In this document: positions 674 through 59,578 of the stretch, in pieces
How the letters are laid out: the number at the start of each line of letters is the position of its first letter
Position numbering within the stretch: the first letter of the stretch is position 1
NCBI GenBank assembly: GCA_001724995.1
Contig: MEFD01000043.1
Coordinates: 124,001-188,000, forward strand
Source: Rubrivivax sp. SCN 71-131
Lineage (GTDB): Bacteria; Pseudomonadota; Gammaproteobacteria; Burkholderiales; Burkholderiaceae_C
Direction: 5' to 3'
DNA: 64,000 bases
Notes under the pieces: model-generated
The model's database searches: none
Seen by the model: only the letters and a program-made list of their open reading frames with translations
What the model was told of the DNA's origin: nothing
Program-made: the position numbers and the translations under genes

Positions 674-719
674 GCCCCGCCTCAGCCCAGACCGAGACGT
701 ACGAGACAGGAGACCGCGC

Positions 720-2045: not shown

Positions 2046-2073
2046 CAACCCGCTGCACGAGGAGAGACGAACC

Positions 2074-3405: not shown

Positions 3406-3445
3406 GCCCGCAGAACGCAGCAACCCGAGCAGGAGAAACCAGATC

Positions 3446-4613: not shown

Positions 4614-4654
4614 GTGACTGCGGCGGCCTCGCCGCGCGACCTGGAGGTAGACGC

Positions 4655-5212
4655 ATGCGGCAGATCATCATCCAGGGCCGGGGAGGGCAGGGTGCGCAGA
4701 CCGCGGGCAACCTGCTCGCCGCCGCCTTCTTCGCGCAGGGCCTGCAGGTCCAGTGCTTCGCCAGCTATGGCGGGGCGCGGCGCGGCACGCCGGTCAGTTC
4801 CTTTCTGCGCGTCGACGAGCGCCCGATCCGTGTGCGCTGCGACATCGAGCGCGCCGACGCCATCCTCTGCTTCGACGCCAGCCTGCTCGAGGGCAAGCTG
4901 CTGGCCTGTGCGAGCGAGCAGACGCTGATCGTCGTCAACTCGGCACGCGGCGCGGCGCACTTTGCCGCGGCGCTGCCCGGGCGGCGCATTCTTCCCATCG
5001 ATGGCTTGGGGCTGGCGCGCGCGCACGGGCTCGGCCGCATCGTCAACTCCGCGCTGCTCGGCGCGCTGGCGTGCACGCTGGGCGCGCCCGCCCTCGACGT
5101 CCTCGAGCGCACCCTGGTGGCGATGTCGCCGCGCCTGCACGACGAGAATATCGCCGCGGTGCAGGGCGGCTGGCACGCCGCACAGGCGCTGCTGCAGGAG
5201 GCCTCCCGATGA
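4655..5212 (+). CDS. 2-oxoacid:ferredoxin oxidoreductase, gamma subunit
   Basis: A 185-residue PorG/KorG-type protein. It starts with IIIQGRGGQGAQTAGNLLA, the glycine-rich signature of the gamma domain, followed by FASYGGARRGTPVSSFLR. The enzyme oxidises and decarboxylates 2-oxoglutarate with CoA, passing electrons to ferredoxin. In the Azoarcus evansii and Thauera enzymes the gamma and alpha parts are, as I recall, one long polypeptide; here they are separate genes with the flavoprotein gene placed between them. GGAGG lies 6-10 bases before the ATG. Its stop overlaps the next start by four bases (ATGA), suggesting translational coupling. Confidence 0.85.
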   Translation: MRQIIIQGRGGQGAQTAGNLLAAAFFAQGLQVQCFASYGGARRGTPVSSFLRVDERPIRVRCDIERADAILCFDASLLEGKLLACASEQTLIVVNSARGAAHFAAALPGRRILPIDGLGLARAHGLGRIVNSALLGALACTLGAPALDVLERTLVAMSPRLHDENIAAVQGGWHAAQALLQEASR

Positions 5213-8054: not shown

Positions 8055-8066
8055 GGTGAGGACACC

Positions 8067-8987
8067 ATGATCGACAACACCCTGCTGGCGGTGCCGCCGC
8101 GCGAAGACGACCTGCTCTGCTCGGGCCACGCCGCCTGCCCCGGCTGCTCCGAGCCGATCACGCTGCGCCACATCCTGGCCGTGCTCGGCCCCGACACGGT
8201 GGCCGTCGTGCCGCCCTCGTGCATGGCGATCATCGCCGGGCCGCAGCCTTTCAGCTCGATGCGCATCCCCGTCTACCAGCCCACGCTCGAAGCCAGCGCC
8301 GCGGCGGCCTCGGGCCTGCGCCGCGCGCTCGACGCGCAAGGCCGGCACGAGACCCAGGTGATCGTGCTTGCCGGCGACGGCGGCACCTACGACATCGGGC
8401 TGCAGTGCCTGTCCTCGGCGGCCGAGCGCAACGAGAACATCCTCTACTTCTGCCTCGACAACGAGGGCTACATGAACACCGGCGCGCAGAAGTCCTCGTC
8501 GACGCCGCGCTTCGCCTACACCAGCTCGACGCCCGCGGGCAAGACCACGCGCAAGAAGAACCTCACCGAGATCATGGCCGCGCACCGCGTGCCCTACGTG
8601 GCCACCGCCAGCGTCAGCTACCTCGCCGACCTGCGCCGCAAGGTCGCCAAGGCCAAGGCCATGCGCGGGCTGCGGCTGATCACGCTGCTCATCCCCTGCC
8701 TGGACGGCTGGGGCCTGGCCGACGACGGCGCCCTGGGCGCAGCACGCCTGGCGGTGCAGAGCGGCGCCTTCCCGCTGCTCGAAGTCGAGGACGGCGACCG
8801 CTGGACGCTGAACAGCGATGCGCCTTCGCGCCCGATCGCCGAGTACCTGGCGGTGCAGCGCCGCTACCGCAAGCTCTCATCCGAGGACGTGAGCGCGCTG
8901 CAGGCGGAGATCGACGAGGGCTGGTCGCGGCTGGTGCAGCGCGCCGAGGCTTCGATGCCTCCGGCGGCCGAGGCGCGCGCGGCCTAG
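8067..8987 (+). CDS. korB: 2-oxoglutarate:ferredoxin oxidoreductase, beta subunit
   Basis: A 306-residue PorB/KorB-type subunit. The CSGHAACPGCSEPITLR stretch near residue 18 supplies cysteines of the proximal [4Fe-4S] cluster. The thiamine diphosphate/Mg motif GDGGTYDIGLQCL lies near residue 108 and continues into CLDNEGYMNTGAQKS. The gene begins 12 bases after korA with GGTGAGGAC as ribosome-binding region. It is the last gene of the bcr-kor run and is followed by strong hairpins. Confidence 0.88.
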   Translation: MIDNTLLAVPPREDDLLCSGHAACPGCSEPITLRHILAVLGPDTVAVVPPSCMAIIAGPQPFSSMRIPVYQPTLEASAAAASGLRRALDAQGRHETQVIVLAGDGGTYDIGLQCLSSAAERNENILYFCLDNEGYMNTGAQKSSSTPRFAYTSSTPAGKTTRKKNLTEIMAAHRVPYVATASVSYLADLRRKVAKAKAMRGLRLITLLIPCLDGWGLADDGALGAARLAVQSGAFPLLEVEDGDRWTLNSDAPSRPIAEYLAVQRRYRKLSSEDVSALQAEIDEGWSRLVQRAEASMPPAAEARAA

Positions 8988-41813: not shown

Positions 41814-43151
41814 TCACTCCTTGGGCTTGTTGCGCAAGTCGCGCACGCGCACGGCCTTGCCCTGAGAGCGCGGAATCGCTCCGGGCGCGAGCACGTCGAC
41901 GTGCGCGGAGATGCCGACGATGGCCTTGATGTGGTGTGCGGCGTCGGCGCCCAGCAGGGCGTACTGTTCGGTCGGCACCGAAGGGTCGGCCTCGATCTCC
42001 ATGCGCACCGTGTCGAGTACGCCCTCGCGCATCAGCACGAGCTGGTAGTGCGGTGCGATGCCCGGACGCCCGACCAGCACGGCCTCGAGCTGCGAGGGGT
42101 AGACGTTGACGCCGCGGATGATCAGCATGTCGTCGTTGCGGCCGGTGACGCGCAGGATGCGCACGTGGGTGCGTCCGCAGGAGCAGGTGTCGCGGGCCAG
42201 ACGGGTGATGTCTCGCGTGCGGTAGCGCAGCATGGGCAGCGCCTGCTTGGTGAGCGTGGTGATCACCAGCTCGCCGGGCTCGCCTTCGGGCACGCGCTTG
42301 CCGGTGTCGGGGTCGATGGTCTCGAAGATGAAATGGTCCTCCCAGCCGTGCAGGCCGCTGCGGTGCTCGCACTCGCAGGCCACACCCGGGCCCATGATCT
42401 CGGAGAGCCCGTAGATGTCGCAGGCGCGCAGGCCCAGGCGGGCTTCGATCTCCGTGCGCATGGCCTCGCTCCAGGGCTCGGCGCCGAAGACGCCCACGCC
42501 CAGCCCGCATTGGCGCAGATCCACGCCCTGCTGTTCGGCGACCTCGGCAATCGCCAGCGCGTAGGACGGCGTCGAGCACAGCACGCGCGGGCGGAAGTCG
42601 GCCATCAGCGTGACCTGGCGCTCGGTGCCGCCGCCGGACACCGGCACCACGGTCGCGCCCAGTCGCGTGGCGCCGTCGTGCGCGCCCAGGCCCCCGGTGA
42701 AGAGGCCATAGCCGTAGGCGTTGTGCACGATGTCGCCCGGGCGTGCGCCGGCCGCGAAAAGCGAGCGCGCGACGAGGTCGGCCCAGTTCGAGAGATCCGC
42801 GGCCGTGTAACCCACGACGGTGGCCTTGCCGGTGGTGCCGGAGGAGGCGTGGATGCGCGCGAGCTGGGTGCGCGGGCGTGCGAAGAGGCCGAAGGGGTAG
42901 TTGTCGCGCAGGTCGGTCTTGACCGTGAAGGGCAGCTGCTGGAGGTCGTCGAGCGAGGAGATGTCGTCGGCGCTCTTCAGGCCCGTGGCCTGCAGGCGCG
43001 GCTTGTGCCAGGGCACGTTCTCCCAGGCGTTGCGCACGGACTCGCGCAGGCGCTGCAGCTGCAGTTGCTCGAGCTTCTCGCGCGGCATCGTCTCGATGTC
43101 GGCATGCAGGTAATCGGAGGGCTTCTGGTTCTGGGCGACGGTCTCGGCCAT
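41814..43151 (-). CDS. padJ: Phenylacetate-CoA ligase (anaerobic type)
   Basis: A 445-residue adenylate-forming enzyme of the PaaK family, made for phenylacetate + CoA + ATP. The phosphate loop is IHASSGTTGKATVVGYTAAD near residue 95, with IYGLSEIMGPGVACECEH near 240. MLRYRTRDITRLARDTCSCG near 315 and GRNDDMLIIRGVNVYPSQ near 340 follow. MPREKLEQLQLQRLR at the start is typical of PaaK. Location downstream of padBCD makes the anaerobic phenylacetate role likely; an aerobic paa gene set is absent from the window. ATG 43151 was chosen over the frame start at 43223, which adds an unsupported tail. Confidence 0.88.
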   Translation of the reverse strand: MAETVAQNQKPSDYLHADIETMPREKLEQLQLQRLRESVRNAWENVPWHKPRLQATGLKSADDISSLDDLQQLPFTVKTDLRDNYPFGLFARPRTQLARIHASSGTTGKATVVGYTAADLSNWADLVARSLFAAGARPGDIVHNAYGYGLFTGGLGAHDGATRLGATVVPVSGGGTERQVTLMADFRPRVLCSTPSYALAIAEVAEQQGVDLRQCGLGVGVFGAEPWSEAMRTEIEARLGLRACDIYGLSEIMGPGVACECEHRSGLHGWEDHFIFETIDPDTGKRVPEGEPGELVITTLTKQALPMLRYRTRDITRLARDTCSCGRTHVRILRVTGRNDDMLIIRGVNVYPSQLEAVLVGRPGIAPHYQLVLMREGVLDTVRMEIEADPSVPTEQYALLGADAAHHIKAIVGISAHVDVLAPGAIPRSQGKAVRVRDLRNKPKE

Positions 43152-43279: not shown

Positions 43280-44122
43280 TTACCTGCCGCCGCGCACGGG
43301 CAGATGCGGTAGCGCAAATCCCTGGTTGAATGCCGCGCGCGTGATGAGCATGAACTTGAAGAAGGAGCCCGCCGCAGTGGAGAGCAGGCCGGTCAGCACC
43401 TGCAGCGGCAGCTTCACCGCCGCGGGCAGCGGCGCCAGCCAGACGATGAGCACCAGCGCCAGCGGCAGCAGGCTGCCGACGACGTAACCGGGCTTGGTGC
43501 GATCGACCGCGCGCAGCGAGGCCGGCCGCTTCTGCAGCGACGCGGCGAGCCGGCTGTACCAGCCGCTGCCGGCGACGAAGCGCGCCAGCAGCAGCACGCC
43601 CAGCGCCGGCCAGGCCCAGTCCGGACCCTGCCCCCACCAGGGCGCGAGCGCCCAGTACAGGCCCGCGCCTTCGGCCAGCCCGGTGGCGATGATGAGCGGC
43701 ACGATGCGCGGTTCGCGCCAGGACGGAATGCCCTTGCTCGCCTTCAAGATGCGCCCCTGGCAGTAGAGGAAGGCGAGGGCGAAGACGGCCGCCAGCGGCT
43801 GCACCTGCGGCCACAGCAGGCTGGCCGCGCCGCTGGCCATGAGCAGCGGCGCGACCGCCGCCTCGCGCGACATCCACGAGGTGTGCGGGTGAAAGAAGAC
43901 GTTGATCGCGCGCAGCGGGCGCCCGATCTCCGCCCACACGCACAGCAGCCCGGTGCCGATCAAGGCCAGCGCCAGGAAGACGAGCACCAGGCGCAGCATG
44001 CCGTCGGCGCCCGCGAAGGTCGTGAACAGCAGCAGGCCGCAGCCCGCGCCGCCGCCCATGAAGTTGCCGGCGGCGCGCTCGTCCCAGTGCAACTGCTGCC
44101 AGGGCTTGGGACCGTAGCTCAT
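43280..44122 (-). CDS. padD: Phenylacetyl-CoA:acceptor oxidoreductase membrane subunit
   Basis: A 280-residue integral membrane protein of the DmsC/NrfD-like anchor type with about eight hydrophobic helices. WDERAAGNFMGGGAGCGLLL is near residue 13, EIGRPLRAINVFFHPHTSWM near 62 and CQGRILKASKGIPSWREPRI near 125. It would anchor the PadBC dimer on the inside of the membrane and pass electrons to quinone. The start overlaps the Fe-S subunit stop by four bases. Assignment rests on the three-gene order plus the neighbouring ligase. Confidence 0.85.
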   Translation of the reverse strand: MSYGPKPWQQLHWDERAAGNFMGGGAGCGLLLFTTFAGADGMLRLVLVFLALALIGTGLLCVWAEIGRPLRAINVFFHPHTSWMSREAAVAPLLMASGAASLLWPQVQPLAAVFALAFLYCQGRILKASKGIPSWREPRIVPLIIATGLAEGAGLYWALAPWWGQGPDWAWPALGVLLLARFVAGSGWYSRLAASLQKRPASLRAVDRTKPGYVVGSLLPLALVLIVWLAPLPAAVKLPLQVLTGLLSTAAGSFFKFMLITRAAFNQGFALPHLPVRGGR

Positions 44123-44796
44123 CGGCTGCTCTCCTTGTCGTCGTCCGCGCCGTCCTTGGCGTCCCACAGGTAATAGAAGTTCGGCTTGGTGCCGAGTTCC
44201 TCGTGCATGCGGAAGTGCTTGTTCTCGGCCAGCAGCTGCGAGACGTTGCTCTGCGGGTCCTCGACGTCGCCGAAGGCCAGCGCCTGCGCGAGGCACGAGT
44301 TGACGCAGGCCGGCGTGGCCGCCGGGTCGACGCCGGGCGTGAGGCCATTCTCGAGGCCGTAGTCGATGCGGTCGACGCAGAAGGTGCACTTGGTGGCCAC
44401 ACCGATGCGCTCCTCGTCGAAGCGCGCCTGCTCGTGCTCGCTCATCTGACCGTAGGCGAAGGTCGGCTTCTCGGTCTTGTAGCGTGCCTGGTAGGGGCAG
44501 GCCACGGCGCAGTAGGCGCAGCCGATGCACAGGTCGTAGTCGATGGTGACGATGCCGTCCGGCCGCTTCTTCGTCGCCGTGCTCGGGCAGACCTCCATGC
44601 ACGGCGGGTCTTCGCAGTGCTGGCAGCCGGTGGGCACGAAGACGCGCTGCACGTTCGGAAATTCGCCCACCTCCATGTCGAGCACGCGGCGCCACTGCAC
44701 GCCCGGCGGCGTGGCGTTGGCGTGCTTGCACGAGGCCGTACAGGTCTGGCAGCCCACGCAACGGCGCAGGTCCGCCACCATCGTCCAGCGCGTCAT
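44119..44796 (-). CDS. padC: Phenylacetyl-CoA:acceptor oxidoreductase iron-sulfur subunit
   Basis: A 225-residue DmsB-type protein with four [4Fe-4S] motifs: CVGCQTCTASCKHANATPPG at 13-32, CQHCEDPPCMEVCPSTATKK near 58, CIGCAYCAVACPYQARYK near 90, and the split CTFC with CVNSCLAQALAFGD. It wires the molybdenum subunit to the membrane subunit. Overlaps of four bases on both sides show tight coupling of padB-C-D. Confidence 0.9.
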   Translation of the reverse strand: MTRWTMVADLRRCVGCQTCTASCKHANATPPGVQWRRVLDMEVGEFPNVQRVFVPTGCQHCEDPPCMEVCPSTATKKRPDGIVTIDYDLCIGCAYCAVACPYQARYKTEKPTFAYGQMSEHEQARFDEERIGVATKCTFCVDRIDYGLENGLTPGVDPAATPACVNSCLAQALAFGDVEDPQSNVSQLLAENKHFRMHEELGTKPNFYYLWDAKDGADDDKESSR

Positions 44797-47582
44797 GCCG
44801 GCACCCTCCGGCGACCCGCAGGCGCCTTGCTCACCTTCACCCGCACGAGGTCGGCACCCGAGCCGGTGGCGTCGGTGAGGTCCAGCGACATCTCGGCCAG
44901 CGTGTTCAGGCTGGGCACGCCGAAGTCCTTGGCCACCGGCGTCGCCCAGTGGTCGAACTGGCCGACGAGCAGCAAGGTGTCGGGCCGGATGCCCTGGCGC
45001 AGTACGACCAGGCCGCGCGTGCTGCGCCGCGGCGTCGCGATGTCGACCCAGTCGCCTTCGTCGACGCCCAGCTTCTCGGCCGCGGCCGGGTTCATGACGA
45101 CGCCGTTGTGGCCGGCGACGTTGCCCGCGACCTCGCGGATCATCTGCATGGCGACGTTGCCGCCCCAGGCGTACTGCATGCTGCGCGCGGTGACGAGCCA
45201 GAACGGATAGTCGGTGGGGCTGCCGCCGGCCTTGACGACCGCCGTCTCCCACAGACCGGGGAAGTCCTTCCACGGCGGCAGCGCCTGGTACTCCTCGAGC
45301 TGCTTGTCCCACCAGTGCATGTCGTTCTCGTGCAGGCGGCGGCCGAGTTCGGCACCCACGCGCTTGAGCCGCTCCTGGTAGGGCATCTCGAAGCGCAGGC
45401 CCCGCTCGACGACGGTCGGGTAGAGGTACCACTGGTCGCGCGGGAAGGGCCGCGTCTTGAAGCCGTTCTCCTTCCACCACTCGAGGCCGAGCACCTCGGC
45501 GCCCTCGGTCAGCTCGGCGCTCGCCGCCTTGCAGGCGGCGTCCCAGATCTCGTCGCGCGTGTGCGCCACCGCAGGGTCGAGCGAGAAGTCGCCCCACTCG
45601 CCGCTCAGCTTGACGCCGCAGGTGCCGCGGTTGATCGCCGCGTTGTACTTCTCGAGCAGGCCGCAGCGCTTGGCCAGCTCGGTGCAGATGTCGCTGAAGT
45701 CGCGCGCCTGCCCGCGCGCCTGCACCGCCGGCTGGCGCAGCGCGAAGCCCTCGTGGTCCCAGAACTGCTCCTGGTACTTGGTGGCGGCCAGGCGCAGCAG
45801 CTGCAGGCCCTCGAGGTCGGTCGCGTCGGGCAGCAGGACGTCGGCGAAGTGGTTGCTTTCGTCGTGCGTGTAGGCGAAGGCGACGACGAAGGGGAAGCGC
45901 GCGATCTTGTCGGTCACGCCCTGGGTGTCCCAGAACGAGATCGCCGGGTTGGTGCGGTAGACGAACCAGACGTCCGGCGGATTCACCTTGGGCAGGCCCT
46001 TGGGCGTGTTGTCGAGGAACATCCACGAGAAGTGCGTGGGCCCGAGCGCCTGCGCCCAGGCGTTGTTGCCGGTCAGCGGCACCATCGTCTTGTAGGCGTT
46101 GCGGATGTTGGGCTGCGCCGACCACTTCTCCTTCGAGGTCGGGTTGAACGGGTAGTCCATCAGCCCGTCGACGCCAGGCTTCACGCTTTCGTGGCGCTCG
46201 GCCATCGGGCGCACCAGGCGCACCGTGGTGCCGATGGTGCCGCCAGGCACCTCGAGCGCGCCGACGAGGGTGGCCAGCAACGTGCGCGCCCAGCAGCACT
46301 CGTAGCCGCCCCAGCCGTTGTTGACGGTCTTGCCCAGCGTCACCGCCACCGGGCGGAAGGGCATGGTCTTGCCGTTGATCTCGATCGTCTGGCCGACGCA
46401 GGCGTGGTCCAGGTACTCGTTGGCGATCTGGCGCATGTCCTTGGCCGGCACGTCGCAGATGCCTTGCGCCCACTCGGGCGAGTAGGGCTTCATGTGCGCG
46501 AGCAGCTTGTCGAAGGCGGTCTCGCCGGCCAGCATGCCGTCGCCGATCACCTCCTGGTCGGCGCCGATCTCGACGGCGTCGACCTCGACCCTGGCCGACA
46601 GCGCCTCGCGGATGCCCGGGGTGTCGTGCGGCACCGCGCGCTGGCTGATCTCGTCCCACACCAGCGGCTTGTGCGTGGCGCGGTCGCGCAGGTAGTAGCC
46701 GTTGGCGCCGACGAGATACGGCGAGCTCGTGTGCCGGGTGAGGTGCGGCAGGTCGAGCTTGTCGCGCGGCGCCTCGTGCAGCATGACGTGGATCAGCGCG
46801 TAGAGGAAGGCCGGGTCGGTCTTCGGCCGGATCGGCACCCACTTCGCCGAGCAGGCTCCTGTGACCGAGAGGTGCGGCTCGACCTGCACGCGTTTCATGC
46901 CGCGGATGCGCGCGTCGGCGTGGCGCCAGATGCCGACGACGCCGCCGGCGGCCTCGATGTTGTTGCCGCAGGAGATCAGGTAGTTGCAGCTCGGCGTGTC
47001 GGGCGCGACGATGAAGGCGCGGTGCCAGAGCTCGCCGTAGAGGTGCTCCGAGTGGTAGCACTTGACGCCCTGGCCGGAGCCGAAGCCCATGTCCACCGGG
47101 CCCCAGGCGGCGAGGAAGGCCGGGAAGGTGCCCATGTAGAACTGCGGCGTGCCGCCGCCGCCGAAGCTGGCCGCCAGGCGCGGGTAGCCGGAAGCGTCGG
47201 TCAGCCCCTCGGCGCGCAGGCGGTTGAGCTGCGCGGCGATGAGGTCGAAGGCCTCGTCCCAGCTGATGGGAACGAATTGTGGATCCTCGTCGCGTCCCTT
47301 CTTCGGATTGCTGCGCTTCATCGGCGACAGGATCCGGTTCGGGTTGTAGGTCTTCTGGATCAGGCCGAAGGCCTTGACGCAGACCTTGCCACCGCCCGGG
47401 TGCACCTCGGCGGCGCAGAAGTTGGGTTCGACCTCGGTGGCGACCCCGTTCTCGACCTTCACGGTGAGCAGGTCGGGGCCGGCGACGCACTGGTAGCAGT
47501 AGGTGGGCACGCGCTGGGTGCCCTCGGGGTCGCGCGGCTTGATCACGCGCGGTGCGGTGCCGATCGGATCGGGGGCGTTCAT
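44793..47582 (-). CDS. padB: Phenylacetyl-CoA:acceptor oxidoreductase molybdopterin subunit
   Basis: A 929-residue DMSO-reductase-family catalytic subunit. It oxidises the alpha-carbon of phenylacetyl-CoA by four electrons towards phenylglyoxylate in Thauera and Azoarcus, the step leading to benzoyl-CoA. The N-terminal cluster motif is CYQCVAGPDLLTV...C...C at 29-70. Pterin-binding stretches include GYPRLAASFGGGGTPQFYMG, NYLISCGNNIEAAGGVVGIW and VPLTGNNAWAQALGPTHFSW. There is no twin-arginine signal (it starts MNAPDPIGTAPRVIKP), so the enzyme should face the cytoplasm, as fits a CoA thioester substrate. A related CoA-ester oxidising molybdoenzyme is the alternative. Confidence 0.87.
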   Translation of the reverse strand: MNAPDPIGTAPRVIKPRDPEGTQRVPTYCYQCVAGPDLLTVKVENGVATEVEPNFCAAEVHPGGGKVCVKAFGLIQKTYNPNRILSPMKRSNPKKGRDEDPQFVPISWDEAFDLIAAQLNRLRAEGLTDASGYPRLAASFGGGGTPQFYMGTFPAFLAAWGPVDMGFGSGQGVKCYHSEHLYGELWHRAFIVAPDTPSCNYLISCGNNIEAAGGVVGIWRHADARIRGMKRVQVEPHLSVTGACSAKWVPIRPKTDPAFLYALIHVMLHEAPRDKLDLPHLTRHTSSPYLVGANGYYLRDRATHKPLVWDEISQRAVPHDTPGIREALSARVEVDAVEIGADQEVIGDGMLAGETAFDKLLAHMKPYSPEWAQGICDVPAKDMRQIANEYLDHACVGQTIEINGKTMPFRPVAVTLGKTVNNGWGGYECCWARTLLATLVGALEVPGGTIGTTVRLVRPMAERHESVKPGVDGLMDYPFNPTSKEKWSAQPNIRNAYKTMVPLTGNNAWAQALGPTHFSWMFLDNTPKGLPKVNPPDVWFVYRTNPAISFWDTQGVTDKIARFPFVVAFAYTHDESNHFADVLLPDATDLEGLQLLRLAATKYQEQFWDHEGFALRQPAVQARGQARDFSDICTELAKRCGLLEKYNAAINRGTCGVKLSGEWGDFSLDPAVAHTRDEIWDAACKAASAELTEGAEVLGLEWWKENGFKTRPFPRDQWYLYPTVVERGLRFEMPYQERLKRVGAELGRRLHENDMHWWDKQLEEYQALPPWKDFPGLWETAVVKAGGSPTDYPFWLVTARSMQYAWGGNVAMQMIREVAGNVAGHNGVVMNPAAAEKLGVDEGDWVDIATPRRSTRGLVVLRQGIRPDTLLLVGQFDHWATPVAKDFGVPSLNTLAEMSLDLTDATGSGADLVRVKVSKAPAGRRRVPA

Positions 47583-49268: not shown

Positions 49269-51608
49269 ATGGGCAATCGCATCGTCCGCCGCGAACAGTT
49301 CTCCGACCTGACCTTCCTCTGGGAGATCGAGGCCCCCGACGTCGCCGAGGCCGCCGAGCCCGGCCACTTCGTCATGGTGCGCCTGCACGAGGAAGGCGAG
49401 CGCATCCCCCTGACGGTGGCCGACTTCGACCGCGAGCGCGGCACGATCACCGTGGTCGTGCAGGCCCTGGGCAAGACGACCGCCGCGATGCGCGACCAGT
49501 ACGAAGAGGGCGACGAGGTGCTGGACTTCGTCGGTCCGCTCGGACTGCCGCAGCACATCGAGAAGGCCGGGCACGTGGTGCTCGTCGGCGGCGGCCTGGG
49601 CGTGGCGCCGGTCTATCCGCAGCTGCGCGCCTTCAAGGAGGCGGGCAACCGCACCACCTGCATCGTCGGCTTTCGCGACGCCTCGCGCCGCTTCTGGCTG
49701 GAAAAGCTCGCGCAGTGGGCCGATGAGCTGATCGTCTGCACCGACGACGGCAGCGCCGGGCGCCCGGGCTACGTCGACGCGGCGCTCACCGACCTGCTGC
49801 AGCGTGATCCGGCGGACCTCGTCGTGGCGATCGGCCCGATGCCGATGATGCGCGCCTGCTCCGAGGCCTCGCGGCCCTTTGGCGTGCGCACCATGGTCTC
49901 GCTGAACACCATCATGGTCGACGGCACCGGCATGTGCGGCTCGTGTCGCGTCACCGTCGGCGGCAAGGTGCAGTTCGCCTGCGTCGACGGCCCCGACTTC
50001 GACGCGCACCAGATCGATTTCGAGGAACTCATCGCGCGCCAGCGCCGCTTCAAGCAGCAGGAGGAGCAGGCCAACGCCGACCACGCACATGTCTGCAGCC
50101 TGGAGGAGCTGCTCGTCAAGCAGGGCAAGCGCACGTACAAGAAGTACGCTGCGCTGGAGCGTCACCAGGTGCCGATGCCCGAGCGCGATGCGCAGGAGCG
50201 CTCGGGCAGCTTCGACGAGGTCAACCTCGGCTACGCGCAGATCGATGCGCTGCGCGAAGCCGAGCGCTGCATCCAGTGCGCCAAGCCGACTTGCGTCGAG
50301 GGCTGCCCGGTGCGCATCGACATCCCCCGCTTCATCCGCCACCTGCTGCTGCGCGACCTGCCCTCGGCGCTGTCGGCGATCCACGACTCCAGCCCCTTCC
50401 CCTCGATCTGCGGCCGTGTCTGTCCGCAGGAGAGTCAGTGCGAGGCGCAGTGCATCCTGGTGAAGGCGAAGATGGAGCCGGTGGCCATCGGGCGCCTGGA
50501 GCGCTTCGTCGGCGACCACGCGCCGGTGCCCCAGGTGAGCCCGCCGGCCGCGCCGGGGCAGGGCGGGCGCGTGGCCATCGTCGGCTCCGGCCCCGGCGGC
50601 CTAGCGGCCGCGGCCGACCTCGTCAAACTCGGCGTCGACGTCACCGTCTTCGAGGCGCTGCACGTCGTCGGCGGCGTGCTGCGCTACGGCATTCCCTCGT
50701 TCCGCCTGCCGCGCAGCATCATCGACCGCGAGCTCCAGCAGTTGCGCGCGGCCGGCGTCAAGTTCCAGACCAACAAGGTCATCGGCAAGACCTTCCGCAT
50801 CGACCAGCTCATGGACAAGATGGGCTTCGACGCGGTGTTCATCGCCGCCGGCGCCGGTGCGCCGACCTTCCTCGGCATCCCGGGGGAATCGGCCGGTCAG
50901 GTGTTCTCCGCCAACGAGTTCCTCACGCGCGTGAACCTGATGGGCGGCGACCGCTTCCCCTATCGCGACACGCCCGTCGGCGTGGGCGAGCGCGTGGCGG
51001 TGATCGGCGCGGGCAACACCGCGATGGACTGCCTGCGTACCGCGCGCCGACTGGGTGCGCAGGTGCGCTGCGTCTACCGTCGCTCGGAGGCCGAAGCGCC
51101 GGCCCGCGTCGAGGAACTGCGCCACGCGCGCGAGGAGGGCGTGGACTTCTCCTTCCTGCACGCGCCGGTGGCGATCCTGCTGAACGAGCGCGGCGACGTG
51201 CGCGGCCTGCGCGCGCAGAAGATGATGCTCGGCGAGCCCGACGCGCGCGGCCGCCGTCAGCCGGTGCCGCTGGACGAGTTCGTCGAATGGCCCTGCGACA
51301 GCGTGATCTACGCGCTGGGCACGCAGGCCAACCCCATCGTCGGGCGCTCGACGCCGGGCCTGGAGCTGGACAAGCGCGGCTTCATCGCCGCCGACGGCCA
51401 GAGCCAGGCCACGAGCATGCGCGGCGTCTTTGCCGGCGGCGACATCGTCACCGGTGGCGCCACCGTGATCCTGGCGATGGCCGCCGGGCGCCGCGCCGCG
51501 CGTGCCATCGGCCATTGGCTGCAGCACGAGCGCGCCGAGTGGCCGCCGCAGGTGCCGCCGCCAGCGGAGTACGTCGACGCCGACGCCCACGCCACCACCC
51601 CCGCCTGA
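49269..51608 (+). CDS. Fused NfnA-NfnB-type NAD(P)H:ferredoxin oxidoreductase
   Basis: A 779-residue fusion. Residues 1 to about 280 are the NfnA/DHODH-electron-transfer-like FAD and NAD domain, with VVLVGGGLGVAPVYPQLRAF near 101 and the [2Fe-2S] motif DGTGMCGSCRVTV...C near 222. Residues from about 310 are NfnB/GltD-like: CIQCAKPTCVEGCPVRIDIP near 337, CGRVCPQESQCEAQC near 382, VAIVGSGPGGLAAAADLVKL near 436, and VAVIGAGNTAMDCLRTARRL near 577. In thermophilic and acetogenic organisms separate NfnA and NfnB bifurcate electrons between NADPH, NADH and ferredoxin. Beside the aryl-CoA genes it may help reduce ferredoxin for ring reduction (inference). Confidence 0.82.
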   Translation: MGNRIVRREQFSDLTFLWEIEAPDVAEAAEPGHFVMVRLHEEGERIPLTVADFDRERGTITVVVQALGKTTAAMRDQYEEGDEVLDFVGPLGLPQHIEKAGHVVLVGGGLGVAPVYPQLRAFKEAGNRTTCIVGFRDASRRFWLEKLAQWADELIVCTDDGSAGRPGYVDAALTDLLQRDPADLVVAIGPMPMMRACSEASRPFGVRTMVSLNTIMVDGTGMCGSCRVTVGGKVQFACVDGPDFDAHQIDFEELIARQRRFKQQEEQANADHAHVCSLEELLVKQGKRTYKKYAALERHQVPMPERDAQERSGSFDEVNLGYAQIDALREAERCIQCAKPTCVEGCPVRIDIPRFIRHLLLRDLPSALSAIHDSSPFPSICGRVCPQESQCEAQCILVKAKMEPVAIGRLERFVGDHAPVPQVSPPAAPGQGGRVAIVGSGPGGLAAAADLVKLGVDVTVFEALHVVGGVLRYGIPSFRLPRSIIDRELQQLRAAGVKFQTNKVIGKTFRIDQLMDKMGFDAVFIAAGAGAPTFLGIPGESAGQVFSANEFLTRVNLMGGDRFPYRDTPVGVGERVAVIGAGNTAMDCLRTARRLGAQVRCVYRRSEAEAPARVEELRHAREEGVDFSFLHAPVAILLNERGDVRGLRAQKMMLGEPDARGRRQPVPLDEFVEWPCDSVIYALGTQANPIVGRSTPGLELDKRGFIAADGQSQATSMRGVFAGGDIVTGGATVILAMAAGRRAARAIGHWLQHERAEWPPQVPPPAEYVDADAHATTPA

Positions 51609-51624
51609 ACGGAGCTTGCACACC

Positions 51625-53757
51625 ATGCTGTGCCCCAAGTGCCATCGTCCCCTCGCCGACGACAGCGAAGGCCCCTACATCTGCTGTGCCGGCGCGCCCA
51701 GCGAGTGGAAGTGCAGCGGCTGCGGCAAGATCAGCGAGGGCTTCGCGCTGCCCTACGGCCGCTGCCCGGAATGCGGCGGCGAACTGCAGCTCTGCGAGGG
51801 CGAGCGCGCCAGCCCGGTCGGCCAGGCGCTGCACGCGCTGCGCATGGCGTTCGAGGTCGAGCTCGGCGGGCGCGCCTTCTACCAGCGCGCCGCGGCGGCG
51901 ACGACGGATCCGGTGCTGCGTCAGCTCTTCGGCCGCTTCGCGGTGATGGAGGGCGAGCACATGGAGACGCTCTCGCGCCGCTATCACATCGACGTGCCCG
52001 ACCCCTCGCCGGACTTCCGGCTCGAGGTCGCCGCGCTCTTTGCCGATGTCGCGCACCGCCCCGAGGACCCGGAAAACCTGTTCGCCATCGCCATCGGGCT
52101 CGAGCAGCGGGCCGCCGCGTTCTTCACCGAGCATGCCCACGCCGCGCCCGAAGGCTCCCCCGAGCGCGCGCTCTTTCGCGAGCTCGCAGCCGAGGAGCGC
52201 GAGCATGCCCACACGCTGAAGACCGAGTTCGACTGCTGGCGGCAGGGGCGCGCGGGTCTCTTCGGGACGTCCGACGCCGTGCAGGCGACCTCCGCCGATG
52301 GCCTCATCAACGCCGCGGCGATGCTGCTGCAGGGGCACGATCCCGATCGCGTCGCGCTCGTCTGCGGCGAGCATCAGCTCACCCATGGCGAGCTGCGCGA
52401 CCGCGTCGCGCGTGCCGCGGCGCTGTGGCGCCAGCGCGGGCTGGCGCGCGGGCACCGCGTGGCCATCAAGCTGCCCGACGGCCTGGACTGGGTGGTCGCC
52501 TTCCTGGCCACGATCTGGGCCGGCGGCACGGCGGTGGCCGTGAACCCGAAGATCCCCGGTCCGGAATGGGAGTACATCCTCGAGGAGGCGGGCTTCACGG
52601 TGATCCTGGCCGAAACGGCGCAGGACACGCCGGCCCCCTGGCGCGAGCGCGTCGTGCTCGTCGACGAGAGCCGCCACCTCGTCTCGGCGATGGAGCCGAT
52701 CCCGCCGCGCCTGGTCGACCCGGACACGCCCGCCTTCTGGGTGCATTCCTCGGGCACCTCGGGCAAGCCCAAGGCGGTCGTGCACGGGCACCGCTTCGCG
52801 CGCGAGATCGAGCGCGTCTCGAGCGAGCGCCTGGGGATCACGGCCAATGACCGGCTCTTCGCCAGCTCGCGCCTGTTCTTCTCCTACCCGCAGACCAACA
52901 GCCTGTGGGCGGGCCTGAAGCTGGGCGCCACCATCATCCTCGATCCGCAGTGGCCCACACCCCAGGGCGTGGCCGGGATCGTGGCCGCGACGCGGCCGAC
53001 CGTGCTCTTCAGCGTGCCCTCGCTGTACCGCCTGCTGCTGGCCGAAGGACTTGCGCCGGGCATCGCGCAGGCAGGTGTGCGGCTGTGCGTGTCGGCGGGC
53101 GAAGCCCTGCCGCAAAGCCTGCGCCAGGCCTGGCGCGAGGCCACCGGCCTGTCGATGTTCGACGGCTACGGCGCCTCCGAGACGCTGGTGCTGGTGCTGA
53201 CGGCGCGCGAAGGGGACGACGGCCTGCAGCCCTCGCCGGGCGTCAGGGTGAGCGCCCTCGATCCCGACAGCGCCGCCGACGGGCGACCGACGCGCCTGCG
53301 CTTCAGGCTCGACTGCCAGGCGCTGGGTTACCTCGACCGCCCTGCCTCGCAGGCCGACAGCTTCCGCGACGGGGCCTTCTGCCCGGCCGACCTCTTCGTC
53401 GCGACCGAAGGTGGCGGCTGGCGCTTCGCCGGACGCGAAGACACGCTGCTGAAGATCAAGGGCCGCTGGGTCAACCTGAACGACGTCGAGGAGCGCCTGA
53501 GCGCAGGCGCGCAAAGCCTGATCGAAGGCGCCGCGGTCCGCATCACCGACGCCGACGGCTTCGACTCGCTGGCCTACTTCTACGTCGCGCGCGATGGCCA
53601 GCAGGAGGCGGTCGAGCGCGAACTCGCCACGCGCAGCCAGACGCTGCCCCAGTACCAGCGTCCGCGCTGGCTGCAGCCGGTCGAGAGCATTCCGCGCACG
53701 GCCACCGGCAAGCTGCTGCGGCGCAAGCTCGCCGAACTGCTCGGGGAGACCCTGTGA
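51625..53757 (+). CDS. Rubrerythrin-like domain fused to an aryl-CoA (benzoate/hydroxybenzoate-type) ligase
   Basis: One uninterrupted 710-residue frame. Residues 1-55 hold zinc-ribbon/rubredoxin-like cysteine pairs (C3/C6, C20/C21, C30/C33, C47/C50). Residues 65-205 form a ferritin-like diiron domain with likely ligands E79, E111-H112, E160 and E190 to H194 (EEREH). Residues 222-710 are an adenylate-forming ligase: VHSSGTSGKPKAVVHGHR near 373, DGYGASETLVLVLTA near 513, GREDTLLKIKGRWVNLNDVE near 609 and the catalytic Lys in TATGKLLRRKL near 696. The ligase half resembles benzoate- and 3- or 4-hydroxybenzoate-CoA ligases. The diiron half could scavenge peroxide or oxygen near an oxygen-sensitive pathway (inference). 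ATG 51625 directly follows the nfn fusion; the stop overlaps the next GTG. Confidence 0.85.
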   Translation: MLCPKCHRPLADDSEGPYICCAGAPSEWKCSGCGKISEGFALPYGRCPECGGELQLCEGERASPVGQALHALRMAFEVELGGRAFYQRAAAATTDPVLRQLFGRFAVMEGEHMETLSRRYHIDVPDPSPDFRLEVAALFADVAHRPEDPENLFAIAIGLEQRAAAFFTEHAHAAPEGSPERALFRELAAEEREHAHTLKTEFDCWRQGRAGLFGTSDAVQATSADGLINAAAMLLQGHDPDRVALVCGEHQLTHGELRDRVARAAALWRQRGLARGHRVAIKLPDGLDWVVAFLATIWAGGTAVAVNPKIPGPEWEYILEEAGFTVILAETAQDTPAPWRERVVLVDESRHLVSAMEPIPPRLVDPDTPAFWVHSSGTSGKPKAVVHGHRFAREIERVSSERLGITANDRLFASSRLFFSYPQTNSLWAGLKLGATIILDPQWPTPQGVAGIVAATRPTVLFSVPSLYRLLLAEGLAPGIAQAGVRLCVSAGEALPQSLRQAWREATGLSMFDGYGASETLVLVLTAREGDDGLQPSPGVRVSALDPDSAADGRPTRLRFRLDCQALGYLDRPASQADSFRDGAFCPADLFVATEGGGWRFAGREDTLLKIKGRWVNLNDVEERLSAGAQSLIEGAAVRITDADGFDSLAYFYVARDGQQEAVERELATRSQTLPQYQRPRWLQPVESIPRTATGKLLRRKLAELLGETL

Positions 53758-54548
53758 GTGCAGATCAGCGCCTGTCCACGCGGCGCGAGGGCGCGGCGCT
53801 CGTCGTCACCCTCGAGCGCCCGCCGGTCAACGCTGTCGACGACGGGCTGCTGGTCGAACTGGACGCGGCCATCGACCTCGCCGAAGCCGACGAAAGCGTC
53901 TGCGTGCTGCATCTGCGCAGCGCGCAGAAGGTGTTCTGCGCCGGCGCCGATCTCGATCTCATGCGCTCCAGCATCGCCACGCCGCAGGGACGCAACCGCA
54001 TGGTCGGCGTCGTGCTGGAGATGCAGCGCGTGTTCGCGCGCCTCGAGAACCTTTCCTGCGTGACGATGGCCGAGATCGGCGGCGCGGCCCTTGGCGGTGG
54101 CTTCGAGATGGCACTGGCCTGCGACTGGCGCATCGCCGCCGACGAGGCCCGCGTCGGCCTGCCCGAAGCGGGCCTGGGCCTGCTGGCCGCGGCGGGCGGC
54201 ACGCAGCGGCTCACCACCCTCGTGGGCGTGGGTGTGGCGCGGCGTCTCATCCTCGGCAGCGAGACGCTGACCGGCCAGGAAGCGCTGAGAATGGGCCTGG
54301 TGCAGTGGTCGGTGCCGCGTGCGCAACTGCCCGAAGCCGCACGCCAGCTGGCCGAGCGCTGTGGCACCCTGCCGCGCCACACGCTGGCCGAGACCAAGCG
54401 CTGCATCGCGCTGGCCGCCGCCTCGCGCGGTGACGGCTACGCCGCCGAGATCGCCGCCACCCGTAGACTGTATGACCACCCCGAGACGCGGCGCCGCGTC
54501 TCGTCCTTCCTCGACAAGAGCACATCCATCCCCAAGGAGAGAACATGA
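53754..54548 (+). CDS. Enoyl-CoA hydratase/isomerase family protein, first paralogue
   Basis: A 264-residue crotonase. The start GTG overlaps the ligase stop. The oxyanion-hole segments are FCAGADLDLMRSS near residue 63 and EIGGAALGGGFEMALACDWR near 105; LPEAGLGLLAAAGGTQRL near 142 holds the usual catalytic Glu. Position between a ligase and a BadH-like dehydrogenase suggests hydration of an alicyclic enoyl-CoA made after ring reduction (inference). Overlaps the next gene by ATGA. Confidence 0.83.
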   Translation: MSADQRLSTRREGAALVVTLERPPVNAVDDGLLVELDAAIDLAEADESVCVLHLRSAQKVFCAGADLDLMRSSIATPQGRNRMVGVVLEMQRVFARLENLSCVTMAEIGGAALGGGFEMALACDWRIAADEARVGLPEAGLGLLAAAGGTQRLTTLVGVGVARRLILGSETLTGQEALRMGLVQWSVPRAQLPEAARQLAERCGTLPRHTLAETKRCIALAAASRGDGYAAEIAATRRLYDHPETRRRVSSFLDKSTSIPKERT

Positions 54549-55291
54549 CGCTGAAGAACAAGCTCGCGGTCGTGACCGGTGCCGCATCCGGCATCGGTCG
54601 CGCCACCGCCACCGCTCTTGCCGCCGCGGGCGCGAAGGTCATCGTCGCCGACATCGCCGCCGAATCGGGCGAAAAGGCGGCCGCCGAACTGCGCGCCGCG
54701 GGGCATCAGGCCGACTACCTGGGCGTGGACATGACCGACGACGCGTCCATCGCCGCCTTCGCCGAGGCGCTGCAGAAGCGGCATGGCCCCGCCGACATCC
54801 TCGTCAACGCCGCCGGCTGGGGCCGCACCGCGCCCTTCTGGGAGGGCACCCCCGACTTCTGGAACAAGATCATCGCGCTCAACTTCGTCGGCCCGATGAC
54901 GCTGACCAAGGCGCTGCTGCCGGCGATGATGGAGCGCAATCAGGGCAAGATCATCAACGTCGCCAGCGACGCCGGCCGTGTCGGCAGCCTGGGCGAGACC
55001 GTGTACTCGGGCGCCAAGGGCGGGCTGATCGCCTTCACCAAGGCGCTGGCGCGCGAAGTCGCACGCTACAAGGTGAACGTCAACTGCGTCTGCCCGGGGC
55101 CCACCGACACGCCGCTGATGGCGGCGGTGCCCGACAAGGTCAAGGACGCGCTGACCAAGGCGATCCCGCTGCGGCGCCTGGGCCAGCCGCAGGAGGTGGC
55201 CGAGGCCATCGTCTTCTTCAGCGGGCCCGGCTCGGACTACGTCACCGGACAGGTGCTCAGCGTCAGCGGCGGCCTGACCATGGTCGGGTGA
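54545..55291 (+). CDS. SDR-family dehydrogenase, 2-hydroxycyclohexanecarboxyl-CoA dehydrogenase (BadH)-like
   Basis: A 248-residue classical SDR: TGAASGIGRATATALAAAG at 11-29, NAAGWGRTAPFWEGTPDFWN near 87, the catalytic Ser in INVASDAGRVGSLGE near 138, YSGAKGGLIAFTKALAREV near 152 and VTGQVLSVSGGLTMVG at the end. NAAGWGRTAPFW and CVCPGPTDTPLM recall BadH of Rhodopseudomonas, which oxidises 2-hydroxycyclohexane-1-carbonyl-CoA. That specific substrate is inferred from motif and neighbours only. PhaB-like acetoacetyl-CoA reductases are the alternative. Confidence 0.75.
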   Translation: MTLKNKLAVVTGAASGIGRATATALAAAGAKVIVADIAAESGEKAAAELRAAGHQADYLGVDMTDDASIAAFAEALQKRHGPADILVNAAGWGRTAPFWEGTPDFWNKIIALNFVGPMTLTKALLPAMMERNQGKIINVASDAGRVGSLGETVYSGAKGGLIAFTKALAREVARYKVNVNCVCPGPTDTPLMAAVPDKVKDALTKAIPLRRLGQPQEVAEAIVFFSGPGSDYVTGQVLSVSGGLTMVG

Positions 55292-55298
55292 GACGGCC

Positions 55299-55796
55299 AT
55301 GAGCTACACGTTGCCCGATTTCCTGGCCCACGCCATCGCACTCGAGCGCGAGGCCGCGGAGCGCTACCTCGAGCTCGCGGACATGATGGAGTCCTATCGC
55401 AACGACGAGGTATCGCAGCTCTTTCGCGACATGGTGCGCTACTCCAACCTGCACCATGACTCGATCGTCGAGCGCGCCAAGGGGATCGCGCTGCCGACGC
55501 TGCGCAGCTGGCAGTACCGCTGGCGCCAGCCGCCCGAAGTCGGCGGTGACGAGGCCTTCGACCCGGGACTCAACGCCTACGACGCGCTGCGCTATGCGCG
55601 CGAGAACGAGGTGCGCGCGCGCGACTACTACGCGCAGGCAGGCAAGGAGTCCGCCGACGCCGAGGTCAAGCGCCTGGCGGCCGAGTTCGCGACCGAGGAA
55701 GCCGAGCATGTGCAGGCCCTCGACGACTGGCTCGCGCGCACGCCGCGACCCGCGGCGACCTGGTCGCACGATCCGGACCGCGGCGCCGCCGGCTGA
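55299..55796 (+). CDS. Free-standing ferritin-like (rubrerythrin-type) protein
   Basis: A 165-residue four-helix protein. Helix 1 carries [18 protein letters not shown] near residue 13, helix 2 [19 protein letters not shown] near 43, helix 3 [20 protein letters not shown] and helix 4 [20 protein letters not shown] near 129. The carboxylate/histidine pattern suits a diiron site, although helix 2 offers a His pair instead of the standard ExxH. It lies 7 bases after the SDR gene, so the operon has two ferritin-like modules, this one and the ligase fusion. Probable peroxide/oxygen protection (inference). Confidence 0.72.
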
Positions 55797-55849: not shown

Positions 55850-56668
55850 ATGAAGCGACTGCAGCTCGCCGGCTATCAGGCCAAGCATTTCGGATATTCG
55901 GTCAGCGGCAAGGTGGCGACGATCCGCCTCAACCGCCCGGAGCGCAAGAATCCGCTCACCTTCGATTCCTACGGTGAGCTGCGCGACCTCTTCCGCGAGA
56001 TGAACTACGCCACCGACATCAAGGCCATCGTCTTCACCGGCGAGGGCGGCAACTTCTGCAGCGGCGGCGACGTGCACGAGATCATCGGCCCGCTGGTGAA
56101 GATGGACATGCCCGAGCTGCTCGAGTTCACGCGCATGACCGGCGACCTGGTGAAGGCCATGCGCATGTGCCCGCAGCCGATCATCGCCGCCATCGACGGC
56201 ATCTGCACCGGCGCGGGCGCGATGATCGCCTGCGGCTCCGACATGCGCCTGTCCACCGCGCGCAGCAAGCTCGCCTTCCTCTTCGTGCGCGTGGGTCTGG
56301 CCGGCGCCGACATGGGCGCATGCACCTTGCTGCCGCGCCTCATCGGCCTCTCGCGTGCCGCCGATCTCCTCTACACCGGCCGTACCGTCGGCGGCGAAGA
56401 GGCGGCGATGATGGGCTTCTACAACCGCCTCGTCGACCCCGAGCAACTGCTGGCCGAGGCGCAGGCGCTGGCGCAAAGCCTGGCCGAGGGCCCGACCTTC
56501 GGCCACGCGATGACCAAGACCATGCTGTGGCAGGAGTGGAACGCGGGCCTGGGCGAGTGCATCGAGGCGGAGGCGCAGGCCCAGGCCATCTGCATGCAGA
56601 CCAAGGACTTCGAACGCGCCTACCACGCCTTCGCCGCCAAGCAGAAGCCCGTCTTCGAAGGCAACTGA
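55850..56668 (+). CDS. Enoyl-CoA hydratase/isomerase family protein, second paralogue
   Basis: A 272-residue crotonase, clearly different from the one at 53754. [20 protein letters not shown] is near residue 22, [19 protein letters not shown] near 61, [19 protein letters not shown] near 121 and [20 protein letters not shown] near 144. The crotonase Glu at the VxxxGL position is Val/Gly here, and an Asp in GADMG may replace it, as in some isomerases or C-C hydrolases. AGGAG lies 7-11 bases before the ATG. Confidence 0.8.
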
Positions 56669-56673
56669 GCACC

Positions 56674-57876
56674 ATGCCCGCCACGCCCGCCGACCTCGCC
56701 TGGCCCTTCTTCGACGACGGCCACCGCGCCCTCGTGCCGCAGCTCGAGCGCTGGATCGCCGAGGAGCTGCCGGCGCTTCTCGAAGGCTCCGAGGGCAGCC
56801 TGGACGCCTGCTACGCCTGCGTGCAGCGTCTCGTGCGCTCGCTCGGCCGCGCGGGCCTGCTGCGGGCCTGCGTGCCGGCGGCCTACGGCGGCCTGCGCGA
56901 GAACTTCGACGTACGCAGCCTGGCGCTGGCGCGCGAGACGCTGGCGCGCGCCTCGGGCCTGGCGGACTTCGCCCTGGCCATGCAGGGCCTGGGCAGCGCG
57001 CCGGTCACGCTGTTCGGCAACGCGGCGCAGAAGGCCGCGCTGCTGCCCGGTGTGGCCGAAGGGCGCACGATCACCGCGTTTGCGCTCTCGGAGCCCGACG
57101 CCGGCTCGGATGTCGCGGCGATGAGCGCGACGGCCGAGCGCCTGCCCGGCGGCGGCTGGCGGCTCGAAGGCGTGAAGACCTGGATCTCCAACGCCGGCAT
57201 CGCCGACCACTACGTGATCTTCGCGCGCAGCGGCGAGGCGCCCGGCGCGCGCGGCATCTCGGCCTTCATGGTCGACGCCAGGACGCCGGGCCTGGACGCC
57301 AGCGAACGCATCCCGGTCATCGCGCCGCACCCGCTGGGGCTGGTCAAGCTGAACGACTGCCGCGTCGGCGACGAGGCGCTGCTCGGCGAGGCCGGGCAGG
57401 GCTTCAAGATCGCCATGGGCACGCTCGACAGCTTCCGCACCACGGTCGGTGCGGCAGCACTCGGCTTTGCCCGCCGTGCGCTCGATGAAGCGGTGCAGCG
57501 CGCGCATGCGCGGCAGATGTTCGGCAAGACGCTGGCCGACTTCCAGATGACGCAGCAGAAGGTCGGGCAGATGGCGGTGTCGATCGACGCCTCGGCGCTG
57601 ATGGTCTATCGCGCCGCCTGGGCCAAGGACGTGCAGCAGGTGCGCGTGACGCGCGAGGCCTCGATGGCCAAGCTCTACGCCACCGAGGCGGCGCAGCAGG
57701 TCATCGACGGCGCGGTGCAGCTCTTCGGCGGCCTGGGCGTCGTGCACGGCTCGGTGGTCGAGCGGCTCTACCGCGAAATCCGCGCGCTGCGCATCTACGA
57801 AGGGGCGAGCGAAGTGCTCGAGCTGATCGTCGGCGCGCGCACGCTGCAGGACGCGCAGGGGACGGCGCGGGGCTGA
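56674..57876 (+). CDS. Acyl-CoA dehydrogenase
   Basis: A 400-residue flavin-dependent acyl-CoA dehydrogenase. [20 protein letters not shown] near residue 130 and [20 protein letters not shown] near 169 are the FAD/substrate motifs. [20 protein letters not shown] is near 279 and the C-terminal [20 protein letters not shown] contains the catalytic Glu in YEGASE. The N-terminal helical region is somewhat divergent. It starts 6 bases after the hydratase stop. Likely oxidises an alicyclic or aliphatic CoA thioester of this operon, passing electrons to ETF. Confidence 0.85.
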
Positions 57877-58956: not shown

Positions 58957-59026
58957 GGCAGCGGGCTCCTTGGGGTTGGGGGGAGATCTCGTGTCAACCG
59001 GGCGCGGCCGGCCCCGGGCCTGCGGC

Positions 59027-59506: not shown

Positions 59507-59578
59507 GGGATCGATCCTGCGGGTTGACTCTCGATGGCCCCATTGTGGCGGGGATTCCGGCGCCTTCTTTGACCCCCC

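Follow-up and report, generated by a model that had tools for sequence, protein, structure and literature searches.

In reverse rubrerythrins, a ribbon stands ahead of the four-helix domain. Ferriperoxin, a rubrerythrin-like peroxidase, reduces H2O2 in a reaction driven by NADPH and FNR (PMC3317640), and CperHydR is a natural chimera of [FeFe] hydrogenase and rubrerythrin that reduces H2O2 (PMC11926857). In aromatic metabolism, Rhodopseudomonas palustris needs the fused Nfn protein AadN ('pattern B') to grow anaerobically on benzoate and 4-hydroxybenzoate (PMC9973337), and Hcl2 of Aromatoleum aromaticum is a 4-hydroxybenzoate-CoA ligase (PMC10715001). The sequence model PRK12775 (NF009413), a putative trifunctional oxidoreductase, describes a single 1006-residue protein, in which an Nfn-type oxidoreductase carries a C-terminal ferritin domain. 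Here we describe a gene of Rubrivivax sp. SCN 71-131 in which a ribbon and a ferritin-like diiron domain, together called the module below, are fused to an aryl-CoA ligase. The gene lies in a stretch of 64,000 nucleotides (contig MEFD01000043.1, positions 124,001 to 188,000), which is referred to as the window.

The fusion protein resembles reverse rubrerythrins and ferriperoxin-type peroxidases in placing its ribbon first, and differs from them in carrying a CoA ligase and in having a 4Glu-2His site that lacks an extra Glu. Like CperHydR, it is a natural fusion of a rubrerythrin part to another enzyme; however, the partner in CperHydR is a redox enzyme, which supplies electrons to its diiron site, and a ligase cannot do so. 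The gene upstream of the fusion (NFN) resembles AadN, by description, in being a fused Nfn-type protein near anaerobic aromatic genes, whereas the available part of PMC9973337 names no ferritin domain or ligase fusion for AadN. The ligase half aligns over almost its full length with benzoate-CoA ligase (4eat, 4rlf, 2v7b) and with HbdA, but scores below the family cut-offs, and by description it has the same proposed place in the phenol pathway as Hcl2. The ferritin part of PRK12775 corresponds to the N-terminus of the fusion and its Nfn part to the upstream gene; the difference is that in the window a stop splits the two, and the ferritin part runs on into the ligase. The parts are known, and as far as our searches go the architecture and the change of partner are undescribed. 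A first-pass annotation, made from the letters of the window, had claimed as much for the architecture, and the claim stands: the open-access literature gave no account of a fusion between a ferritin module and a CoA ligase among the matches listed.

Domains and conservation of the fusion protein

The same annotation had seen an unbroken frame of 710 codons, a ferritin-like domain with ExxH-type ligands, and a complete ligase with an intact phosphate loop and catalytic Lys, all of which was borne out. The frame (51625-53757, forward strand) contains no stops, and its ATG follows 10 bases after a GGAG at 51611-51614. The protein exceeds the curated Pfam cut-offs both for Rubrerythrin (38.7 bits, cut-off 22.8) and for AMP-binding (193.5 bits, cut-off 29.9). 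The latter match, the P-loop HSSGTSGKPK, which begins at residue 374, and the A10 Lys (K696) identify the C-terminal half as an ANL adenylate-forming enzyme, and both motifs are present in all 30 other rows of the alignment of fusion copies (A1; read up to the frame end). The best model for this half is the 3-hydroxybenzoate-CoA ligase HbdA (NF053567), at 301.6 bits against a cut-off of 1000; it scores 246.2 bits against the benzoate-CoA ligase family TIGR02262, where the cut-off is 375.25.

The N-terminal part has the four-helix ferritin-like fold and the E, ExxH, E, ExxH ligand pattern of the Rubrerythrin family. The predicted diiron set is E79, E109xxH112, E160 and E191xxH194, that is, four Glu and two His. 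It is not a classical rubrerythrin, in that the extra Glu of the third helix is absent and the rubredoxin-like domain is N-terminal rather than C-terminal. We take the extra Glu to be Glu97 of classical rubrerythrin, three residues past the third-helix ligand, and E160 to be equivalent to Glu94; on this assumption the expected position is occupied by Ala163, which is invariant in 39/39 fusion copies. The ribbon (C30/C33/C47/C50) has rubredoxin-like spacing and stands before the four-helix domain, opposite to the classical order. Its metal could be Fe or Zn, which sequence does not distinguish. Identity with rubredoxin was considered and rejected, the profile match to a solved rubrerythrin in this region (E 0.05) being no better than that to HypA (E 0.043). 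Among relatives, several Rubrerythrin scores lie close to the cut-off, either above it (L039 26.2, L071 28.7) or below (L033 20.8, L103 22.1; L numbers denote loci and G numbers genomes). In the VIA comparison, ferritins and bacterioferritins had Z values nearly equal to that of 2oh3, and no solved rubrerythrin was among the 50 entries listed, an absence that is uninformative.

E77, E79, E109, H112, E160, E190, E191 and H194 are invariant in all 39 fusion copies, and these residues are likewise invariant in 36/36 module sequences (28 fused, 6 separate and 2 on Nfn). The four ribbon Cys are kept in 37 of the 39 copies, the exceptions being one that is cut by a contig end and the ribbonless L033. 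The ratio of nonsynonymous to synonymous substitution rates (dN/dS), calculated for 12 close pairs, is 0.08-0.34 in the ferritin part and 0.09-0.27 in the ligase. Both halves are therefore under similar purifying selection.

Other members of the family had been called for, and were found. A second full-length fusion in the same genome, on contig C27, is free of stops and 65% identical across residues 1-709. Scanning genome contigs for the pattern yielded 45 matches, of which 36 are relatives, in 36 loci and 32 assemblies (counted by accession prefix; four assemblies hold two loci each). The ferritin part and the ligase share one frame in all 36 loci, and 35 of the 36 matches read through without a stop. 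The exception, L020, spans two genes: the match (L020:6-2437) covers the last part of a separate module, whose beginning is lost at the contig start, and, immediately after it, an intact module-ligase fusion. L034 and L035 are truncated at contig ends, and L039 and L042 lack the initial part of the ribbon. Because of the second copy and the 36 loci, a frameshift or assembly error is excluded, and so are a chimeric assembly and read-through. The first-pass annotation had allowed that the fusion might prove to be widespread and already characterised: it does occur in many relatives, and no description of it was found among the matches listed. By record title, 31 of the 36 loci are from Burkholderiales or its families or genera, two are from Pseudomonadota, and Proteobacteria, Gammaproteobacteria and Anaerolineales contribute one each. 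The sole record that is not a metagenome-assembled genome (MAG) is Ramlibacter monticola KACC 19175 (L023), which besides the fusion has benzoyl-CoA reductase and a separate module after Nfn. The upstream peptide of L019, the 'Anaerolineales' MAG, is identical to that of Aquabacterium L018; L019 is probably misbinned, and was kept in every tally. As to plasmid-borne spread, the plasmid collection gave no match at E 1e-60. The nearest unfused relative of the ligase half, in the 7 genomes searched, is 43-44% identical.

The module changed fusion partner from Nfn to ligase

Positions 3-783 of PRK12775 map onto NFN together with its stop, and positions 797-1005 map onto the start of the fusion; in the comparison of the proteins, the upstream gene matches positions 3-768 and residues 3-212 of the fusion match positions 799-1005. 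The two adjacent genes score 1363-1365 and 284-288 bits against this model, and neither reaches its cut-off of 1895. The module was searched for at E <= 1e-15 in samples of the order (399 genomes), the class (369) and the phylum (398), each of which includes the Rubrivivax genome; beyond that genome it occurs in 6, 1 and 1 genomes respectively. In all 8 of these genomes, which lie outside the fusion group, the module is tied to an Nfn-type gene, either as the next gene (6 genomes, L071-L076) or as its C-terminal part (2 genomes, G513 and G934), and in none of the 8 is it on a ligase. The order of Nfn and module is thus kept in 8/8 genomes while the gene boundary has shifted, and it is concluded that the module left Nfn, or never joined it, and joined the ligase. 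The module is therefore the usual partner of an Nfn-type oxidoreductase, which in the window is encoded directly upstream, a point that goes beyond the first-pass annotation. A single origin of the fusion was considered and is unsupported: the fused label needs two changes on the module tree, and the separate module of L071 falls among the fused rows.

Among the 32 fusion assemblies, 21 have an Nfn of at least 70% identity (matched only in part in G1124 and G1126), another 3 have no more than partial homologues at 54-57%, and 8 gave no match at E <= 1e-150; one of these 8, that of L036, has a piece of Nfn at a contig edge. Thus 10 of the 32 show no such Nfn, although MAGs are incomplete; in 8 of these 10 its place immediately ahead of the fusion is taken by an hcrB-like gene. 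In L021, L023 and L024 a separate module directly follows Nfn besides the fusion. The diiron ligands are invariant both where Nfn was not found and where a separate module coexists. In its fused form, the module now works for the ligase protein.

These observations bear on two other explanations. It is doubtful that the module is mainly a docking device, which would bind the Nfn-type oxidoreductase and place the ligase and other pathway enzymes on the electron-supply complex, with its own chemistry secondary. The covalent attachment to Nfn in 2 genomes and the position directly after it in 6 would suit such a role, as would the occurrence of Nfn in 18 of 37 fusion loci and the HcrB-ferritin-ligase fusion found in L033; but 10 of the 32 fusion assemblies have no such Nfn, Nfn retains its own separate module in 3 fusion genomes, and the ligands are invariant regardless of Nfn. 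It is very unlikely that the fusion is an accident, in which the boundary of two adjacent operon genes was lost and the N-terminal half became a tolerated passenger. The gene order, which is that of the unfused genomes, and the weak constraint on the linker (see below) are what would be expected from such an event, but the similar purifying selection on both halves, the diiron ligands invariant in 39/39 copies, and the retention of the join in two paralogues and where Nfn was not found all argue against it.

Downstream of Nfn and the separate module, L073-L076 have a pyruvate:ferredoxin oxidoreductase, a dihydroorotate dehydrogenase-like gene and a small ferredoxin-like gene, the last of which occurs in the window too. 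None of the aromatic reference genes was matched in the flanks of these four loci.

Aromatic pathway setting

The benzoyl-CoA setting proposed in the first-pass annotation is supported by benzoyl-CoA reductase (bcr) genes in the same window (Table 1). Of the 33 fusion genomes, 25 have a class I benzoyl-CoA reductase that scores above cut-off, as do 5 of the 8 genomes with an unfused module, two of which (G329 and G396, of the four L073-L076 genomes) have it elsewhere in the genome. In the order sample (n=399), the module occurs in 7 genomes, the reductase in 14 and both in 5 (Fisher p 4.9e-7, or 1.0e-5 without the Rubrivivax genome; neither value is corrected for kinship). A weak module match in G103 (38.5 bits), which has benzoyl-CoA reductase, was excluded from the 7 carriers.

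Marker genes were tallied by identity thresholds in 37 fusion loci, namely the 36 and the C27 copy, with short contigs scored as misses. Genes like hcr are found in 19 loci, Nfn in 18, PaaK/PadB in 17, phenol-type genes in 9, bcr in 3 and ECH1 or short-chain dehydrogenase (SDR) genes in 22; 29 loci have at least one aromatic marker. The phenol-type loci comprise 5 with synthase or carboxylase genes, 3 with the regulator only (91-96% identity), and L023, where the marker is weak, being one regulator match at 46%. The three hcr genes of L013 are all above the 4-hydroxybenzoyl-CoA reductase cut-offs, and hcr in other loci was called by similarity to them. In the Rubrivivax genome hcrCAB is on a different contig, with the alpha subunit above cut-off. 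The C27 copy adjoins a phenylphosphate carboxylase beta gene (above cut-off), matches to PRK08296 and phosphoenolpyruvate synthase, which we take to be phenylphosphate synthase, and a MobR-like regulator; these surroundings are an anaerobic phenol cluster. In L033, a MAG represented here by one contig, a single frame of 971 residues (L033:4146-7058) joins HcrB (418.7 bits, cut-off 404.55), a ribbonless ferritin domain and the ligase. The hcr genes, the phenol genes and this HcrB fusion argue for substrates of the 4-hydroxybenzoate type, and the neighbours of the ligase thus point to 4-hydroxybenzoate or phenol-type acids, which the first-pass annotation had not singled out. The substrate of the ligase half is most likely 4-hydroxybenzoate or a close relative, activated for the benzoyl-CoA pathway; the genome also encodes, apart from the fusions, a benzoate-CoA ligase of the conventional kind (776.9 bits, cut-off 375.25). 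In the region of the acyl pocket (window residues 418-425 in A1), the motif is YPQ in 19 of 23 copies beside enoyl-CoA hydratase (ECH) or SDR genes, the window copy included, and YPL in 8/8 phenol-linked copies. The Rubrivivax genome has one copy of each, which hints at two substrates.

The same setting makes it highly improbable that an Nfn-fed diiron site works like the BoxA/BoxB pair and, when oxygen is low, hydroxylates the acyl-CoA product of the ligase. A diiron domain, a flavoprotein reductase and a CoA ligase do share an operon; however, the genes around the fusions are dominated by reductive benzoyl-CoA metabolism, and in L073-L076 the separate module accompanies pyruvate:ferredoxin oxidoreductase.

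The fusion gene lies within a tightly packed series: NFN stops 16 bases before it, and the GTG of the next gene overlaps the stop of the ligase. Genes were called with a simple in-house caller, and the frame of L091 (GC 51%) was read separately. NFN, scanned as one chain of 784 residues, contains DHODB_Fe-S_bind, Fer4_20 and Pyr_redox_2, and matches PRK12778 at 966 bits (cut-off 1103). A second, separate ferritin-like protein, RBR2, is close to the solved 2oh3 from Magnetospirillum (E 6.5e-61). After the operon, at 57940-61176, there are acetyltransferase-like, hemerythrin-like, membrane and small proteins (labelled by reading); many relatives have the same block after the operon, some of them on the opposite strand. 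The window edge truncates the first benzoyl-CoA reductase gene (2-673), whose label C is based solely on its position and on reading. The molybdopterin group is presumably PadBCD, phenylacetyl-CoA:acceptor oxidoreductase. The remaining genes of the 2-oxoacid group are nearest to NAD(P)-binding, PorA/PadG and PorB/PadI models, all below cut-off. With bcr, 2-oxoacid oxidoreductase, and a molybdenum oxidoreductase next to a PaaK-like ligase, the organism is equipped for anaerobic aromatic degradation.

Table 1. Features of the fusion gene and its surroundings, in window coordinates
Feature	Position	Strand	Remarks
Fusion gene (ribbon, ferritin-like diiron domain, aryl-CoA ligase)	51625..53757	+	710 aa
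N-terminal Cys ribbon	51625..51792	+	residues 1-56; C30, C33, C47, C50
Ferritin-like four-helix domain	51814..52242	+	residues 64-206; E79, E109/H112, E160, E191/H194 (predicted ligands)
Variable linker	52243..52308	+	residues 207-228
Adenylate-forming aryl-CoA ligase half	52309..53754	+	residues 229-710; P-loop from residue 374, catalytic Lys696
Fused Nfn-type NAD(P)H:ferredoxin oxidoreductase (NFN)	49269..51608	+	PRK12775 match
ECH1, enoyl-CoA hydratase family	53754..54548	+	GTG start
Short-chain dehydrogenase	54545..55291	+	best model BadH, 279.6 bits, below cut-off 431.2
RBR2, second separate ferritin-like protein	55299..55796	+	homologue of solved 2oh3
ECH2, enoyl-CoA hydratase family	55850..56668	+	PRK08258, above cut-off
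Acyl-CoA dehydrogenase	56674..57876	+	scanned as 56686-57873
Molybdopterin subunit, 4Fe-4S subunit, third gene	43280..47582	-	third: no NCBIfam match, membrane by reading
PaaK-like phenylacetate-CoA ligase	41814..43151	-	581.9 bits, below cut-off 646.3
Class I benzoyl-CoA reductase genes	2..4285	+	B, A, D above cut-off (TIGR02260, TIGR02259, TIGR02261)
Small ferredoxin and 2-oxoacid:acceptor oxidoreductase genes	4368..8987	+	ferredoxin label by reading; gamma subunit above cut-off

Proposed function

A redox role of the N-terminal part is likely. We give about even chances to the suggestion that the protein is a hydroxybenzoate-type CoA ligase with a tethered peroxide or oxygen reductase, fed by NAD(P)H or ferredoxin. 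The C-terminal half would activate an aromatic acid with ATP and CoA for entry into the benzoyl-CoA pathway. The ribbon would accept electrons that the Nfn-type flavoprotein draws from NAD(P)H or ferredoxin, or that another donor provides where Nfn is missing, and would pass them to the putative diiron site, where H2O2 or O2 would be reduced. HcrB, joined in L033 where the ribbon is missing, is a flavin-binding subunit (PF00941), and this one case fits the idea of the ribbon as the point of electron entry. In the fusion lineage the module would have been joined to the ligase gene that followed it, where other bacteria have it as the C-terminal domain of Nfn or as the next gene, and the tether would hold the scavenger and the entry to the pathway together in equal amounts. 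Since ligation has no redox step, the join most likely serves to tether and co-produce a scavenger ahead of oxygen-sensitive enzymes, from which we infer a protective role.

Between the conserved W205 and N229 the linker has 18-33 residues in 31 aligned copies, and in 8 of the 12 pairs it has a higher dN/dS than either half, reaching 1.7 (over about 20 codons). This variation in length and the high dN/dS favour tethering over tight allostery. In the predicted structure, the predicted local distance difference test score is about 41 at residues 211-220 and the overall predicted template modelling score is 0.63, so a rigid interface is not predicted. It is on these grounds that we regard as fairly unlikely a redox gate, in which O2, peroxide or electron supply, sensed by the module, would toggle the ligase, sparing ATP when the reductive pathway is idle; a free module gene beside Nfn, moreover, has no ligase to gate. 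Such a gate would account for the covalent join being kept in the 36 loci and both Rubrivivax copies; the diiron ligands kept in the 10 assemblies where no such Nfn was found imply that the module serves the ligase-bearing protein itself, and enzymes downstream in the pathway are oxygen-sensitive. We judge unlikely also a more specific version, in which a diiron/ribbon switch, reduced by the Nfn/ferredoxin pool, would permit ligation only when low-potential electrons are available for benzoyl-CoA reductase and would turn it off in air.

Several points weigh against the proposal of a ligase with a tethered reductase. The 10 of 32 fusion assemblies without such an Nfn, although these MAGs are incomplete, imply that Nfn is not always the donor, and the relative L033 lacks the ribbon. 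The invariant Ala163 in place of the extra Glu makes peroxidase chemistry less sure. Because the ligase half is below the cut-offs for HbdA and benzoate-CoA ligase, its substrate rests on the neighbours, and the hcr genes are not adjacent to the fusion in the window. The window-type and phenol-type copies differ in pocket motif, so their substrates may differ, and that of the window copy may be a different acid. Finally, 3 of the 8 unfused genomes (G322, G387, G513) have the module and no benzoyl-CoA reductase above cut-off.

A ferritin-like module thus occurs with an Nfn-type enzyme, which supplies electrons, as well as on a ligase, which activates carbon, and it is statistically tied to class I benzoyl-CoA reductase. 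A likely functional setting is thereby provided for the ferritin domain of the putative PRK12775 proteins. It also opens the question of how facultative aromatic degraders shield or stop the oxygen-sensitive benzoyl-CoA pathway when they meet air: the fused module may help this anaerobic pathway to survive such contact.

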